A DNA stretch of 57,757 nucleotides from Gemmatimonadaceae bacterium (GTDB taxonomy: Bacteria > Gemmatimonadota > Gemmatimonadetes > Gemmatimonadales > Gemmatimonadaceae). Below are positions 3,227 through 57,757 of this stretch, in pieces (position 1 is the stretch's first letter; each line of letters starts with the position of its first letter). The stretch is taken from positions 1-57,757 of the forward strand of contig DATNEW010000021.1 in assembly GCA_035606695.1 (NCBI GenBank). Direction: 5' to 3'. The notes below the pieces were generated by a model. The model searched no databases. It was given only the letters and a program-made list of their open reading frames with translations, and was not told the origin of the DNA. Made by a program: the position numbers and the translations under genes.

Positions 3227-3293
3227 CATTTTGATTTATCGTTCCTCGCTACAGCGCTTCGCACCTTCGCTCGGAATTCCGCCATTTTGATTT
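3227..3293 (+). repeat. Repeat A copy 1 with flanking 11-bp direct repeats
   Basis: A 42-bp copy of repeat A occupies 3241-3282; it starts GTTCCTC and ends GGAATTCCGC. It is bracketed by two perfect copies of CATTTTGATTT, at 3227-3237 and 3283-3293. The A/T-rich flanks contrast with the GC-rich genes around. The arrangement resembles a target-site duplication, or one-plus units of a tandem repeat with a 56-bp period. It fills the murF-mraY gap and ends just before the mraY start. Confidence 0.85.
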
Positions 3294-7060: not shown

Positions 7061-8158
7061 ATGACGCGCATCGTCTTCGCGGGTGGGGGCACCGGCGGGC
7101 ATCTCTATCCAGGCATCGCGATCGCGCGCGCCCTCGTGCGGGCGGATGCGTCGGTCGAGCCGTTCTTCATCGGCGCGCAGCGCGGCATCGAGCGCACGGT
7201 GCTGCCGACGACTGAATTTCCATATCTGCTGCTCGATCTCCATCCGCTCTACCGAACGGCGGTGTGGAACAACGCGAAGACGGTGGCGGGATTGTCGACG
7301 TCGTGGCGGCGGCTGTCCGCCATGGTGAAGCAGGAGCGGCCCGCCCTGATCGTCGGAACCGGCGGCTATGCGGCGGGGCTCGCGCTGGCGTACGCCGTGA
7401 TGCACCGCATTCCCATCGTGCAGCAGGCGGGCGACAGCTTTCCCGGACTCACCGCGCGCGCGTTCAGCCGCTGGTCGCGCGAGATCTATCTCAACTTTCC
7501 TGAAGCGGCGCGCGTGCTGACGTCGCATCATCCAGGTTCGCTGATCGACACCGGCGCGCCGATCGAGCCGCCGCCGTCGCCCCGCCCGGACCGCGCGGCC
7601 GCGCGAGTGAAGTGGGGATTTCCGCCGACCGGCGGCCACGTGCTGCTCGTCTACGGAGGCAGCCAGGGATCGCGCGCGATCAACGAGGTCGTCGCGGAGT
7701 GGGTCGATCGTTCGCTTCCCGAAAACCTATACGTTATCTGGGGAACGGGGCGCGCGACGTACGAACAGTTCAAGCATTGTGAGGGACCGCGCGTGCGCGT
7801 GCGCGACTATCTCGCGCCGATCAGCGAGGCGTATGCGGCGACCGATCTCGCCGTCGCGCGCGCGGGGGCGATGACGACCGCCGAGCTCTTCGCGTGGGAG
7901 ATTCCCGCGATCCTGATTCCGCTGCCGACGGCCGCGGCGGATCATCAAAGCACGAACGCCGTGACGCTCGAGCGCGCCGGCGCGGCGATTCACATTCCGC
8001 AGGCGCAGTTCACGGTCGAACGACTCGATGCCACCGTGCGCAAGCTGCTCGAGTCCCCGGGAGAGATGGACCGGTTGTCGGCCGGTGCGGCCGCGCGCGC
8101 GAGGCCCAATGCGGCAGCGGAGATTGCGCGGAGGATACTGCATTTGCTGTCATCCTGA
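7061..8158 (+). CDS. murG: UDP-N-acetylglucosamine--N-acetylmuramyl-(pentapeptide) pyrophosphoryl-undecaprenol GlcNAc transferase
   Basis: MurG adds GlcNAc to lipid I to make lipid II on the cytoplasmic membrane face. The glycine-rich loop GGGTGGHLYPG, the GGSQGSRAIN loop and the C-terminal donor site (RAGAMTTAEL, then DHQSTNA) are all present. The acceptor-side segment, which commonly reads HEQN followed by GLTN in MurG, reads QAGD and GLTA here. The length of 365 residues is normal. The last codons and the stop lie inside a B repeat, so the element supplies the gene's 3' end. Confidence 0.95.
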   Translation: MTRIVFAGGGTGGHLYPGIAIARALVRADASVEPFFIGAQRGIERTVLPTTEFPYLLLDLHPLYRTAVWNNAKTVAGLSTSWRRLSAMVKQERPALIVGTGGYAAGLALAYAVMHRIPIVQQAGDSFPGLTARAFSRWSREIYLNFPEAARVLTSHHPGSLIDTGAPIEPPPSPRPDRAAARVKWGFPPTGGHVLLVYGGSQGSRAINEVVAEWVDRSLPENLYVIWGTGRATYEQFKHCEGPRVRVRDYLAPISEAYAATDLAVARAGAMTTAELFAWEIPAILIPLPTAAADHQSTNAVTLERAGAAIHIPQAQFTVERLDATVRKLLESPGEMDRLSAGAAARARPNAAAEIARRILHLLSS

Positions 8159-8248
8159 GCGCGGCGAAGGACCCCTTTCGCGGCGGAGGAGTTCTCCTCG
8201 GCGACCAAGGGGTCCTTCCCCTTCGCTACGCTCAGGGTCAGGATGACA
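8148..8248. repeat. Repeat B copy 1, inverted-repeat element between murG and murC
   Basis: The 101-bp element begins TGTCATCCTGA and ends with its exact inverse TCAGGATGACA. Inner arms GAAGGACCCCTT and AAGGGGTCCTT also pair, giving a long hairpin with a short central loop. It overlaps the end of murG by 11 bases, including the stop codon. No T-tract follows, so it is not a classical terminator, but the folded RNA could affect murG mRNA stability or murC readthrough. Confidence 0.9.
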
Positions 8249-9653: not shown

Positions 9654-10366
9654 GCGACGAGGAGCGTCCCGCGGCGCGTGACGGGCGCCGGATGCTCCGT
9701 CTGAGCCTCATCGGCATCGCGGCGCTGCTCGTCGTGTCGTCGCCGCTGTGGGGGCCCGTGCTGATGCGCCGCATGGCGTTCTTTCACGTGCATCGCATCG
9801 AGATCATGGGTGCGCGCTACGTCGCGCCGAACGACATCCTCAACCGTCTCCACGTCGATACGATGAAGTCGGTGTGGGATCCAACCGGCCCGCTCGAGCG
9901 CCGCATTCTGTCGCAGCCGGAGATTGCGAGCGCCCACGTCGAGCGTAAACTCCCGGGAACGCTCGTGATTCGAGTCACCGAGCGCGCTCCCGTCGCCCTC
10001 GTGCCTGCGAACGGCGGCTTTCGTGTGTATGATGAACGCGGCGTCGCGTTGCCGATCGATCCCACGCGAGTCTCTGTGGATGCGCCGGTGATCATGCAGC
10101 CCGACATCGGCGTGCTCCGATTACTCGGCGCCATGCGCGTGGGTTTGCCGAATCTGTATGCTCGTGTCAGTACCGTGCGGCGCGCGGGGGCGCCCAATGA
10201 GCTGGTGCTTCAGCTCAAGGAAATCCCCGTGCGTACCACCCAGGATGTTACACTCGATCGTCTCGCCGAGATCGAGCCCGTCGAAGCGGACCTGATGCGT
10301 AAACAGCTTCGCGTTCTCGAGCTCGATCTTCGTTTTCGGGATCAAGTCGTTGCCAGATTACAATGA
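9650..10366 (+). CDS. ftsQ: Cell division protein FtsQ (POTRA domain)
   Basis: FtsQ is a bitopic inner-membrane protein linking early and late divisome proteins. One hydrophobic helix at about residues 16-34 (LRLSLIGIAALLVVSSP) follows a short charged cytoplasmic tail. A POTRA domain starts at FFHVHRIEIMGARYV, and the FtsQ core has the VERKLPGTLVIRVTERAPVAL segment. The GTG start overlaps the murC stop. At 238 residues it is on the short side of the family. Identification relies on the fold-level motifs plus position before ftsA. Confidence 0.92.
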   Translation: MSDEERPAARDGRRMLRLSLIGIAALLVVSSPLWGPVLMRRMAFFHVHRIEIMGARYVAPNDILNRLHVDTMKSVWDPTGPLERRILSQPEIASAHVERKLPGTLVIRVTERAPVALVPANGGFRVYDERGVALPIDPTRVSVDAPVIMQPDIGVLRLLGAMRVGLPNLYARVSTVRRAGAPNELVLQLKEIPVRTTQDVTLDRLAEIEPVEADLMRKQLRVLELDLRFRDQVVARLQ

Positions 10367-10368
10367 TG

Positions 10369-10455
10369 GTTCCTCGCTACGGCGCTCCGCACCTTCGCTC
10401 GGAATTCCGCCGAGACAGCCGCTACGCCACTCCGCACCTTCGCTCGGAATTCCGC
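10369..10455 (+). repeat. Repeat A copies 2 and 3, in tandem between ftsQ and ftsA
   Basis: Two 42-bp copies lie at 10369-10410 and 10414-10455, separated by three bases. Both end GGAATTCCGC. The second is degenerate in its first seven bases and has CCACT where the first has GGCGCT. They fill the whole gap: the first begins two bases after the ftsQ stop and the second ends four bases before the ftsA ATG. The ftsA ribosome-binding region therefore lies inside the repeat, where GGAA sits 10 bases before the ATG. Confidence 0.9.
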
Positions 10456-13148: not shown

Positions 13149-13233
13149 GCGGAATTCCGAGCGAAGGCGCGCAGCGCCGGAGTGAGGAACTATGACGACT
13201 GTTCGCAAATGCGCGTCGCGCCGGAGTAAGCAA
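13149..13233 (-). repeat. Repeat A copy 4 plus a decayed half copy, between ftsZ and the M23 gene
   Basis: A full 42-bp repeat A lies at 13149-13190 in reverse orientation, reading GCGGAATTCC at its left end and GAGGAAC at its right. A decayed partial copy follows at about 13205-13233, keeping CGCCGGAGTAAGCAACT, which parallels CGCCGGAGTGAGGAACT of the full copy. Together they fill most of the 99-base gap. The purine-rich GGAGTAAG of the decayed copy is the only Shine-Dalgarno-like sequence before the next gene. Confidence 0.85.
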
Positions 13234-34568: not shown

Positions 34569-34595
34569 AGTCGGCGGACTCCCCTCACTCCGCGG

Positions 34596-34707
34596 TCATC
34601 CTGAGTGGAGCGAAGGACCCCTGTCTCAGCGGAGCGCGGCATGAGACTCCTCCGCCGGGACGGGGGTCCTTCGACTGCGGCGCTGCGCGCCTTCGCTCAG
34701 GATGACA
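34596..34707. repeat. Repeat B copy 2, between the beta-propeller gene and comEC
   Basis: The 112-bp element starts GTCATCCTGAG and ends CTCAGGATGAC, the exact inverse. Inner arms GAAGGACCCC and GGGGTCCTTC also pair, and CGGAG and CTCCG are near the centre. It takes up half of a 229-base gap. The remaining 80 bases before comEC hold no gene. Confidence 0.9.
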
Positions 34708-38422: not shown

Positions 38423-38591
38423 TGTCATCCCGAGCGAAGGCGCGCATCGCGGACCCCCCGCTGTCATCCCGAGCGAAGGCGCGAAGCGCCGAAGTCGAGG
38501 GACCCCCGTCCCGACGGAGGAGCTCCACGCAGCGCTCCGCCGAGAAGGGGGTCCTTCGACTCGCTCGCTGCGCTCACTCGCTCAGGATGAC
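38423..38591. repeat. Repeat B copy 3, compound element between fbp and the mutase gene
   Basis: The element begins with two head copies of TGTCATCCCGAGCGAAGGCG, at 38423 and 38462, and ends CTCAGGATGAC at 38591. Inner arms GGGACCCCCGTCCC and GGGGGTCCTTCGACTC are partly complementary. The second head copy runs CGCGAAGCGCCGAAGTCGAGG, which is also the core of repeat A in reverse orientation. This copy is therefore the clearest link between families A and B. The whole 201-base gap holds no gene. Confidence 0.88.
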
Positions 38592-38617
38592 GCACGCCGC
38601 GTTAATTTCCGGTCGCC

Positions 38618-40680: not shown

Positions 40681-42332
40681 TGGACGGCACCGATCAACTG
40701 CGCGCGGAGCTCGTACGAGCCGCGCAATCGCTGGGTGCGCCCGCGGACGTCGAGCCCATCATCGAGCGGCCGCGCGATCCGTCGTTCGGCGACTGGGCGA
40801 CGAATCTCGCCATGGTGTTGGCCAAGCCGCTCGGCCTGAAGCCGCGCGATCTGGCGGCCGCGATCGTCGAACGTCTCGATCACATGCGCGCCGGAATTCG
40901 GAGCGCCGAAATCGCGGGGCCCGGGTTCATCAATTTCCGCGTCGCGTCGGACGTGTTCGCGGAAGGCCTGCGCGCGCTCATCAACGCGGGTGATGCGTAC
41001 GGCCGGTCGAACGCGGGCCAACAGTGTCCGGTGAACATCGAGTTCGTATCGGCGAATCCCACCGGGCCGCTGCACGTTGGACACGGCCGGCAAGCCGCGC
41101 TCGGCGACGCGATTTCGTCGCTGTTGGCCGCGACGGGCTGGAAGGTCACGCGAGAGTTCTATTACAACGACGCCGGCGCGCAGATCATGAATCTCGCGTT
41201 CAGCGTGCAGGCGCGCGTGCGGCAGCTTGGCGGCCAGGACATTCCGTTCCCGGAGAACGGCTACCTCGGCGACTATATTAGAGATCTGGCACAACGGTAC
41301 ATCGACGAGCACTCGTCCGATCCGAACGCCGACGACCTCGACGCCGTGCGCCGCTTCGCCGTGCGTGAGTTGCGTAAGGAGCAGGATCGCGACATGCAGG
41401 CGTTCGGCGTCAAGTTCGACGTCTACTTCCTCGAGTCGTCGCTGTACGCCGAAGGGCGCGTGACGGCCACGATCGAGCGCCTCGTCGCGGCGGGTCACAC
41501 CTACGAGAAGGATGGCGCGCTGTGGCTCAAGACCACCGACTTTGGCGATGACAAGGATCGCGTCATGCGGCGGAGCGCCGAGAAGGGCGGTGAGCCGACC
41601 TACTTCCTGCCGGACGTCGCGTACCACGTGACGAAGTGGGAGCGAGGCTTCGCGCGCGCGATCAACGTGCAGGGTGCCGATCATCACAGTACGGTGACGC
41701 GCGTGCGGGTCGGCCTGCAGGCGCTCGACATGGGCATTCCGCCGGGGTATCCGGAATACGTGCTGCATCAGATGGTGACGGTGATACGCGGCGGGGAAGA
41801 GGTGAAGATCTCCAAGCGCGCCGGCAGCTATGTCACGGTGCGCGATCTGATCGACGAGGTGGGCCGCGATGCGGTGCGCTACTTTTTCCTCATGCGCAAA
41901 GGCGACTCGCAGCTCGTGTTCGACGTCGACGTCGCGCGCTCGCAGTCCGATGAGAATCCGGTGTACTACATCCAGATGGCGCACGCGCGCATGTCGGGCA
42001 TCTTTCGCGTCGGCGAGATCGACGCCGAGAGTGTGACGGGTGTGGACGCCGACCTCTCGGTGCTCACGCTGCCGGAAGAGCAGGAGCTGATCAAGGCGCT
42101 GCTCGATTATCCGTCGCTCGTCGCCGGCGCGGCCGAGGCGTTGGAGCCGCACCGCGTCGCGACGTATCTGCACGACACGGCGGGGAAGGCGCACCTGTGG
42201 TATCACAAGGCGCACGTCCTCGGCGAACCCGATCAGATCATGCGCGCGCGGCTCGTGCTCGCGCGCGCGTCGAAGCTGGTGTTGAAGAATGGGCTGGCGG
42301 TGTTGGGGATCACCGCGCCGGAACGGATGTGA
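40680..42332 (+). CDS. argS: Arginyl-tRNA synthetase
   Basis: ArgRS charges tRNA-Arg. The 550-residue class I enzyme has the N-terminal Add-1 domain, the HIGH motif as HVGH at 132-135 (NPTGPLHVGHGRQA) and the KMSKS loop as KISKR at 376-380. A DALR anticodon-binding domain follows (YYIQMAHARMSGIF). The start is the GTG whose first base is the last base of the preceding TAG stop, giving direct coupling. A B repeat begins one base after the stop codon. Confidence 0.95.
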   Translation: MDGTDQLRAELVRAAQSLGAPADVEPIIERPRDPSFGDWATNLAMVLAKPLGLKPRDLAAAIVERLDHMRAGIRSAEIAGPGFINFRVASDVFAEGLRALINAGDAYGRSNAGQQCPVNIEFVSANPTGPLHVGHGRQAALGDAISSLLAATGWKVTREFYYNDAGAQIMNLAFSVQARVRQLGGQDIPFPENGYLGDYIRDLAQRYIDEHSSDPNADDLDAVRRFAVRELRKEQDRDMQAFGVKFDVYFLESSLYAEGRVTATIERLVAAGHTYEKDGALWLKTTDFGDDKDRVMRRSAEKGGEPTYFLPDVAYHVTKWERGFARAINVQGADHHSTVTRVRVGLQALDMGIPPGYPEYVLHQMVTVIRGGEEVKISKRAGSYVTVRDLIDEVGRDAVRYFFLMRKGDSQLVFDVDVARSQSDENPVYYIQMAHARMSGIFRVGEIDAESVTGVDADLSVLTLPEEQELIKALLDYPSLVAGAAEALEPHRVATYLHDTAGKAHLWYHKAHVLGEPDQIMRARLVLARASKLVLKNGLAVLGITAPERM

Positions 42333-42333
42333 A

Positions 42334-42431
42334 TGTCATCCCGAGCGTGGCGAGGGATCTGCCATGTCGGTCAGAGGGACGCCGCTCTAGCGGGATGCTA
42401 GATTCCTCGTCGCTTCGCTCCTCGGAATGAC
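42334..42431. repeat. Repeat B copy 4, between argS and the PfkB kinase gene
   Basis: The 98-bp element begins TGTCATCCCGAGCG and ends CGCTCCTCGGAATGAC, with imperfectly paired ends. It has diverged most from the other B copies in the middle (AGGGACGCCGCTCTAG). It starts one base after the argS stop and ends 15 bases before the next ATG, so it is essentially the entire gap. Confidence 0.85.
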
Positions 42432-42446
42432 TCTCTCCTCCAGCAA

Positions 42447-43364
42447 ATGACCGTCCTCTGCGTAGGATCCGTCGCTCTCGACTCGGTCGAGACGCCATTC
42501 GGCAAAGCCGACAACGTGCTCGGCGGATCGGGCAATTTCTTTTCGGCGTCGGCGAGTCATCTCTCGCCCGTGCAGCTCGTCGGCGTGATCGGCAACGATT
42601 ATCCGATCGCCGACCTCAGGGCGAAGTTCGCGTCGCGTCCGATCGATCTCACAGGCGTGGAGCAGGCTGACGGGGCTTCGTTCCGCTGGCGTGGACGCTA
42701 TCGCCACGACCTCAACGTCGCGGAGACGCTCGAGACACACCTTGGCGTGTTCTCGAACTTCCGTCCGAAGATTCCCGATCAGTTCCGCAACGCGCCGTTC
42801 GTGTTTCTCGGCAACATCGACCCGCGCCTGCAACTCGACGTGTTGACACAGGTCAACAAGCCCAAGCTCGTGGCGTGCGACACGATGAATTTCTGGATCG
42901 AGAGCCGGCGCCCTGATCTCATGAAGCTGCTCGAGCGCGTCGATCTCATCACGCTCAACGACGCCGAGGCGCGGCAGCTCACCGAGGAATTCAATCTCGT
43001 GAAGGCGGCGCGCTGGATCATGAATCACGGCCCCAAGTTCGTCGTGATCAAGAAGGGAGAGCACGGCGCGTTCATGTTCACGCAGTCGAGCATCTTCTTC
43101 GCGCCGGCGTATCCGCTCGAATCGGTGTTCGACCCCACCGGCGCCGGTGATTCCTTCGCCGGCGGCTTCATGGGCTATCTCGCCCGGACGGGTGACTTGT
43201 CGGAAGCCAGCCTGCGCCGAGCCGTCGTGTACGGCTCGGCGATGGGCTCATTCGCGGTCGAGAAGTTTTCCGTCGATCGCCTGCTCGAGATCAACGGTGA
43301 TGACGTGCGCAAACGCGTTGCGGACATCTACCAGCTCGTGTCGTTCGAGCAAGATCTGGCATGA
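42447..43364 (+). CDS. PfkB-family carbohydrate/nucleoside kinase
   Basis: The 305-residue protein is a ribokinase-like sugar kinase. The N-terminal substrate lid region (VLCVGSVALDSVET, VLGGSGNFFSASAS) and the C-terminal signature DPTGAGDSFAGGFMG, with the catalytic Asp, are clear. The substrate cannot be read from sequence. The stop overlaps the purM start by ATGA, which hints at a purine or ribose link but does not prove one. Confidence 0.88.
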   Translation: MTVLCVGSVALDSVETPFGKADNVLGGSGNFFSASASHLSPVQLVGVIGNDYPIADLRAKFASRPIDLTGVEQADGASFRWRGRYRHDLNVAETLETHLGVFSNFRPKIPDQFRNAPFVFLGNIDPRLQLDVLTQVNKPKLVACDTMNFWIESRRPDLMKLLERVDLITLNDAEARQLTEEFNLVKAARWIMNHGPKFVVIKKGEHGAFMFTQSSIFFAPAYPLESVFDPTGAGDSFAGGFMGYLARTGDLSEASLRRAVVYGSAMGSFAVEKFSVDRLLEINGDDVRKRVADIYQLVSFEQDLA

Positions 43365-48445: not shown

Positions 48446-48487
48446 GCGGAATTCCGAGCGAAGGTGCGTAGCGCCGAAGCGAGGAAC
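48446..48487 (-). repeat. Repeat A copy 5, between ribBA and ribH
   Basis: A 42-bp copy in reverse orientation reads GCGGAATTCC at its left end and GAGGAAC at its right. It fills most of the 63-base ribBA-ribH gap. The only Shine-Dalgarno-like purine tract upstream of ribH (GAGGAAC) belongs to the repeat, but it is 14 bases from the ATG. Confidence 0.9.
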
Positions 48488-48501
48488 GACAAATAATCGT
48501 A

Positions 48502-57609: not shown

Positions 57610-57622
57610 TATTAATAGCAAC

Positions 57623-57757
57623 ATTGTTCCTCACTGCGGCGCTTCGCACCTCCGCTCGGAATTCCGCCGAGCCAGGGGCATTGTTCCTCACTGCGGCGCT
57701 TCGCACCTCCGCTCGGAATTCCGCCGAGCCAGGGGCATTGTTCCTCACTGCGGCGCT
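57623..57757 (+). repeat. Repeat A copies 6-8 in a tandem 57-bp array, running off the window end
   Basis: Three copies of repeat A (57626-57667, 57683-57724, 57740 onward, the last cut by the window edge) occur with an exact 57-bp period. Each is separated by the same 15-base spacer containing GAGCCAGGGGCATT. The full copies appear identical. The array starts 14 bases after the BFN gene and probably continues beyond the window. Identical units argue for recent amplification. Confidence 0.92.

Follow-up and report, generated by a model that had tools for sequence, protein, structure and literature searches.

The CGTC-tagged REPs described by Di Nocera et al. (2013, PMC3733652) include dRS3 of Neisseria and RPE-4 and RPE-6 of Rickettsia. 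They have stems of 8-9 bp with complementary AT at the first two positions, loops of 4-5 nt and an unpaired tail that is mostly CCA, and they occur predominantly as head-to-head dimers (PMC3733652). No transposase is linked to them, and their movement was left open by the same authors (PMC3733652). GTAG-tagged REPs and REPINs are known together with RAYT (TnpAREP), and the features read by RAYTs are described in PMC8266576. A GNA loop on G-C pairs is known to form a very stable DNA mini-hairpin, as in the d(GCGNAGC) oligonucleotides of Hirao and Yoshizawa (cited in PMC4686876 and PMC6479982).

The window, the whole stretch of 57,757 nt analysed here, is from a genome of the Gemmatimonadaceae and contains copies of two repeat families, A and B. 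Both are REP-like elements by the general definition, being short, palindromic, mostly extragenic and present in many similar copies. Family B resembles the CGTC-tagged REPs in its TGTC or CGTC tag (32 of the 37 core-bearing heads) followed by AT, its many copies, its head-to-head dimers, its intergenic sites, often between convergent genes, and in having no linked transposase. It differs in its 4-bp outer stem, GA/GA loop, variable nested modules and GNA cap. Moreover, the B tail is usually CCCC (30/37), not CCA, and the A-T pair of the first stem is mostly lost (GGAC in 92/119 heads). Tag, dimers, location and the lack of a linked transposase (searched for as PF01797) thus agree with the CGTC/TGTC REPs, but the stem, the loop and the tail do not; B is therefore filed here as a variant beside the four published families and not as a member of one. 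Family A has no CGTC tag and forms direct arrays; it is a separate REP-like family.

Tagged, irregular, strand-specific hairpins are common to our repeats and the GTAG-tagged REPs/REPINs, and B also has the paired inverted heads. Nevertheless, classification of A or B as a GTAG REP with RAYT was rejected, because there is no GTAG-type tag and no PF01797 gene. A profile search for RAYT (PF01797) found none in this genome and, among 23 relatives, a single same-genus hit (genome G001) that is not flanked by such repeats; this search revealed no mobilising enzyme. Like MITEs, the repeats are short, palindromic, non-autonomous and recently inserted, and one A copy has an 11-bp direct repeat; A differs in its inconsistent target-site duplication, and no parent transposon was identified for it. 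The tips of the heads are GNA on G-C pairs, and the shortest B module is GCGAAGC itself, but the mini-hairpins of Hirao and Yoshizawa are studied oligonucleotides, whereas those discussed here are predicted tips of genomic repeats, known from sequence. A search of Rfam at gathering score gave no family in the window, and a literature search for the strings GAGCGAAGCGAAG and GTCATCCTGAGC returned unrelated papers only.

Copies in the window and their shared core

The B element behind fbp has three heads. The first (38423..38461, + strand) is 3'-truncated and stands in tandem with the second (38462..38507, + strand), which has a TGTC tag, a bulged T and a CCCC tail. The third (38548..38592, - strand) is the head-to-head partner and carries a different loop module, GCGAGTGAGCGCAGCGAGCGAGTC. 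The second head is built from the outer stem TCCC/GGGA, a GA/GA loop and the core hairpin GGCGC-GAA-GCGCC; the sequence at 38462-38510, TGTCATCCCGAGCGAAGGCGCGAAGCGCCGAAGTCGAGGGACCCCC, is as the earlier note had read it. Family A in its own orientation (48446-48490, + strand) is GCGGAATTCCGAGCGAAGGTGCGTAGCGCCGAAGCGAGGAACGAC and carries the same inner sequence. The proposal of that note that A and B have a core in common is thus borne out, including the small hairpin, GGYGC-NNN-GCGCC, in both families.

The core might have been limited to this one pair of repeats, an outcome that the note itself had named as contrary to its proposal. Instead, it is repeated genome-wide, far above chance. In searches of the whole genome (5.9 Mb, 50 contigs) with the reversed pattern as control, the core pattern GAGCGAAGGNGCG has 75 copies versus 8, GAGCGNAGGYGCGNAGCGCC 127 versus 0, and GAGCGNAGGYGCGNNGCGCC 138 versus 0. 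In five same-genus genomes GAGCGNAGGYGCGNNGCGCC has 0, 0, 0, 2 and 3 matches, and the stricter GAGCGNAGGYGCGNAGCGCC was found once among 120 other sampled genomes of the phylum. The likeness reaches past the core noticed before, from GAGCGNAGG through CCGNAG on the far side. The earlier note had missed that the stems on either side are paired, as TTCC/GGAA in A and as TCCY/RGGA in B, that the three-base loop is GNA with a variable N, and that A and B differ within the core too. One half of the core stem is GGTGC in 31 of 38 A copies versus GGCGC in 37/37 B copies, and a bulged T (AGTCGA) is present in B only, A having no bulge. The common core is one of several modules carried by B.

Three more B elements in the window consist of two inverted heads each: one between murG and murC (8148..8248), one before comEC (34594..34707) and a B-like one at 42335..42431. 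The start of family B, GTCATCCTGAG, occurs 163 times in the genome versus 0 for the control, and the TGA inside its copy at 8149-8158 is the stop codon of murG. Both here and in sister species, 5'-truncated B heads also form runs with a period of 17-43 nt that close with a single full head (L050 10452-10538, L057 9890-9970, L250, L260 and L239). Family A copies lie between murF and mraY (3238..3282, - strand, flanked by the 11-bp direct repeat AAATCAAAATG), between ftsQ and ftsA (10366..10410, - strand, with a second, 3'-truncated copy at 10419..10455, - strand), directly after ftsZ (13149..13193, + strand, followed by a degenerate second copy to ~13239) and between ribBA and ribH (48446..48490, + strand). 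At the end of the window (57622..57757, - strand) there is a direct array of period 57, consisting of two full A copies plus another that is interrupted where the contig stops. Contig C47 starts with matches at the same spacing (31-44, 88-101). Since the window ends inside the array and C47 starts at this spacing, the assembly probably broke at the repeat.

Folding pattern and linkage of the ends

The tag-bearing strands of A and B follow a common pattern of short stems, GA/GA or GNA/GNA internal loops and a GNA triloop cap, with the general formula stem - GA/GA - stem - GNA/GNA - stem - GNA cap. An example from A is TTCC(ga)GC(gaa)GGTGC[GAA]GCGCC(gaa)GC(ga)GGAA. Family B combines the same pieces in various ways, from the short form TCCT(ga)GC[GAA]GC(ga)AGGA to nested ones, for example TCCT(ga)CCCT(ga)GC[GTA]GC(ga)AGGG(ga)AGGA. 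This grammar was written after inspection of these heads, so it is descriptive and not preset. It accounts for 20 of the 23 distinct A heads at no cost; of the 86 distinct B heads, 49 conform if up to one defect is allowed and 37 do not. Shuffled interiors fit in 0-0.6% of cases and reverse complements in 0%. The same head type is also present in sister species and in other genera. Among 56 distinct core heads sampled with the loop left free, 51 have a GNA cap, N ranging over all four bases.

Substitutions in the stems support the pairing. They were counted on a hand-set alignment, because MAFFT misplaces the one-base bulge of B, and the counts were repeated with looser sampling. The innermost pair of the B outer stem is C-G in 64 heads, T-A in 51, C-A in 4 and T-G in 0 (p=2e-29), and under the looser sampling Watson-Crick pairing is preserved in all 23 two-sided stem changes. 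Where only one side of an A stem has changed, the result is G.T in 88 cases versus A.C in 4, mostly at two positions that copies may inherit; the one-sided changes of B have no G.T/A.C bias. With RNA parameters the tag strand is predicted to adopt exactly this fold, which is favoured over shuffles, while with DNA folding parameters the A hairpin was not favoured over shuffles. A DNA fold of the heads is nonetheless plausible, given the known stability of GNA mini-hairpins on G-C pairs.

The ends of the two families are strictly linked. Among 115 distinct copies with GAGCGNAGGYGC, 81 could be classified at both ends: 41 have both A ends, 40 have both B ends and none is a hybrid (Fisher p=5e-24 for linkage of the 5' and 3' ends). 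The remaining copies are truncated, degenerate or unrelated, or have further end types. Tag, outer stem, tail and bulged T go together: the tag is CGGAA in 31 of 38 A copies versus GTCA in 37/37 B copies, and the commonest tails are CAAT in A versus CCCC in B. In single A-like copies with CTCG/CGAG or CTTC/GAAG outer stems, the stem is changed as a pair and the core is constant.

Recent insertion and different niches

Gene order in the window is conserved in same-genus genomes. Where the flanking genes could be placed, no element is present in these genomes in the A gaps at 3238, 10366 and 48446 or in the B gaps at 8148 and 38423; the comparison leaves out the gap at 34594. The A site after ftsZ is empty in 5/5 relatives. 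In 4/5 relatives ftsQ and ftsA overlap at ATGA, and in four relatives ribBA and ribH meet as TAATG or TAAATG; in both junctions A is inserted here. Because those window copies that could be compared are absent from the same-genus orthologous gaps, they are recent insertions, as judged from which species have or lack the element; the proteins compared are ~70-90% identical from species to species. The gap at 42335 is without an element in four relatives and contains a B element of different sequence in G001. This G001 element is in the same gap as window 42332-42447, which may be a favoured site. The gap between fbp and the methylmalonyl-CoA mutase gene, site of a B element here, contains other hairpin-like repeats in G001 and G004, for example ACAGAGATCACCGAGATCACAGAGG in G001. 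A clean 11-bp repeat flanks the A copy at 3238 only, the other good cases being array spacers, and the excess of flanking repeats over permuted flanks comes from a few copies and arrays. We therefore rejected target-site duplication as a general rule for A.

Copy numbers vary widely within the genus. The B pattern GTCATCCNGAG has 456, 418, 122, 113, 15 and 8 matches, over backgrounds of 2-8, and short B-type heads are found in 18 of 121 genomes of the phylum sample. The A pattern has 79 matches here and 6 in G004, five of which are true A copies, and its single match in G005 is not A; hence A is seen only here and in about five copies in G004. The core module is also present in A of G004, in two B-type heads of G005 and in one B-like head of G028.

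The two families occupy different niches. In 61 stretches, which cover ~18% of the genome, were chosen largely for holding copies and were annotated by a home-made gene caller, the A gaps are 36 co-directional, 4 divergent and 2 convergent, and the B gaps 33 co-directional, 3 divergent and 22 convergent; B is enriched between convergent genes (OR 3.8, p=1e-5). Where A lies in a short co-directional gap, its paired part begins ~15 nt (median) past the stop codon, and 15-19 nt separate its end from the following start codon. Family A is probably a case of mobile hairpins entering stop/start junctions of cell-division, cell-wall and riboflavin genes. In co-directional gaps 24 of 36 are sense (bias p=0.065), and the third that is antisense led us to reject A as a strictly oriented 5'-leader element. 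For 7 of 18 sense A copies in the short gaps there is a GAGGAA within 8 nt of the called start codon. Only direct arrays of A were seen, with spacers of 12-15 nt, while B forms head-to-head inverted pairs, in the window and in many pairs 60-120 bp apart.

Origin and spread of the two families

Taken together, we consider it probable that the repeats belong to two distinct families, A and B, of mobile, non-autonomous hairpins of REP-like type, which have a folding pattern and an inner module in common. The earlier note had offered two readings. According to one of them, there was one ancestral element with exchangeable ends, so that cores and ends recombine freely. The core module is identical in both families, as expected from such exchange, but the intermediate forms with one A end and one B end that the note proposed to look for number 0/81, and tag, outer stem, bulge and tail are linked; the idea is refuted in this genome, and we regard it as very improbable. 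The other reading took A as a shortened offshoot of B; widened to descent in either direction, through a change of tag and outer stem followed by independent spread, it is a real possibility, if not the one we favour. The layout and module are the same, the aligned starts of A and B, GTCATCCC and GGAATTCC, have 5/8 bases in common, and A is narrower in distribution than B. However, there are no intermediates, and outside this genome the module is almost absent, for A and B alike (138 matches here versus 0-3 in sisters), so that the direction is not readable from distribution. The likeness could also be convergent, if both families obey the same grammar and the core is one of the few sequences satisfying it. 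The grammar does impose numerous shared bases (GA, GNA, GC), and many further modules of B also satisfy it. Nevertheless, convergence appears improbable, because the five-pair GGYGC/GCGCC stem and two 3x3 loops are not fixed by the grammar and because no other genome has the module in abundance, whereas here both families do.

Two further alternatives concern how the repeats are maintained or spread. They may be RNA-level elements under selection, intercistronic hairpins acting on mRNA stability or translation. The exact fold given by RNA parameters, the predominantly sense copies of A at operon junctions and the GAGGAA within ~8 nt of the start codon in some of them are consistent with such a role, and a REP lying no more than 15 nt from a stop codon is able to influence translation (PMC12306157). 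An effect on the host would also be compatible with mobility. Still, we find this explanation unlikely, given that a third of the A copies are antisense, the sites are empty in sister species and the B heads form inverted pairs. Spread by replication slippage or template switching at hairpins would need no transposase, and none was found in the PF01797 search; the direct arrays of A with their 12-15 nt spacers could arise in this way, as could the series of 5'-truncated B heads that close with a full one. This is hard to reconcile with dispersed single copies that lie far apart with both ends conserved, and slippage is therefore also an improbable source of the families.

If A and B are two mobile hairpin families, as we favour, each would be recognised in trans as a folded single strand with the tag 5' of an irregular hairpin. 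We infer this from the tag and the hairpin, by analogy with TnpAREP; strand-specific recognition of this kind would be in line with the grammar, which no reverse complement of a head satisfies. What keeps the families apart would be the tag, GTCA for B and CGGAA for A, together with the outer stem that matches it. The shared module may have arisen by descent or been copied between the families within this lineage. Such common descent or within-lineage copying of one module fits best, since the module is abundant in both families only here. Selection would then leave B mainly between convergent genes and A at the stop/start junctions of operons, where the GAGGAA of A may serve as a Shine-Dalgarno sequence.

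A broader possibility, which we put forward tentatively and regard as somewhat unlikely, is a mobile superfamily read by fold more than by sequence. Its hairpins would be put together from interchangeable, even nested modules, with GA/GA steps joining the stems and GNA at the tips, and families with new tags, A among them, would arise within a single genome and spread without a RAYT-type transposase. The genus offers a natural contrast: by pattern count, relatives have 456, 418, ~120, 15 and 8 copies of B, and in one species a second family has recently expanded. With such differences it becomes practical to compare gene presence and to map insertions. The grammar offers a means of recognising such elements where sequence similarity fails, and it predicts the features that a mobilising protein should read.
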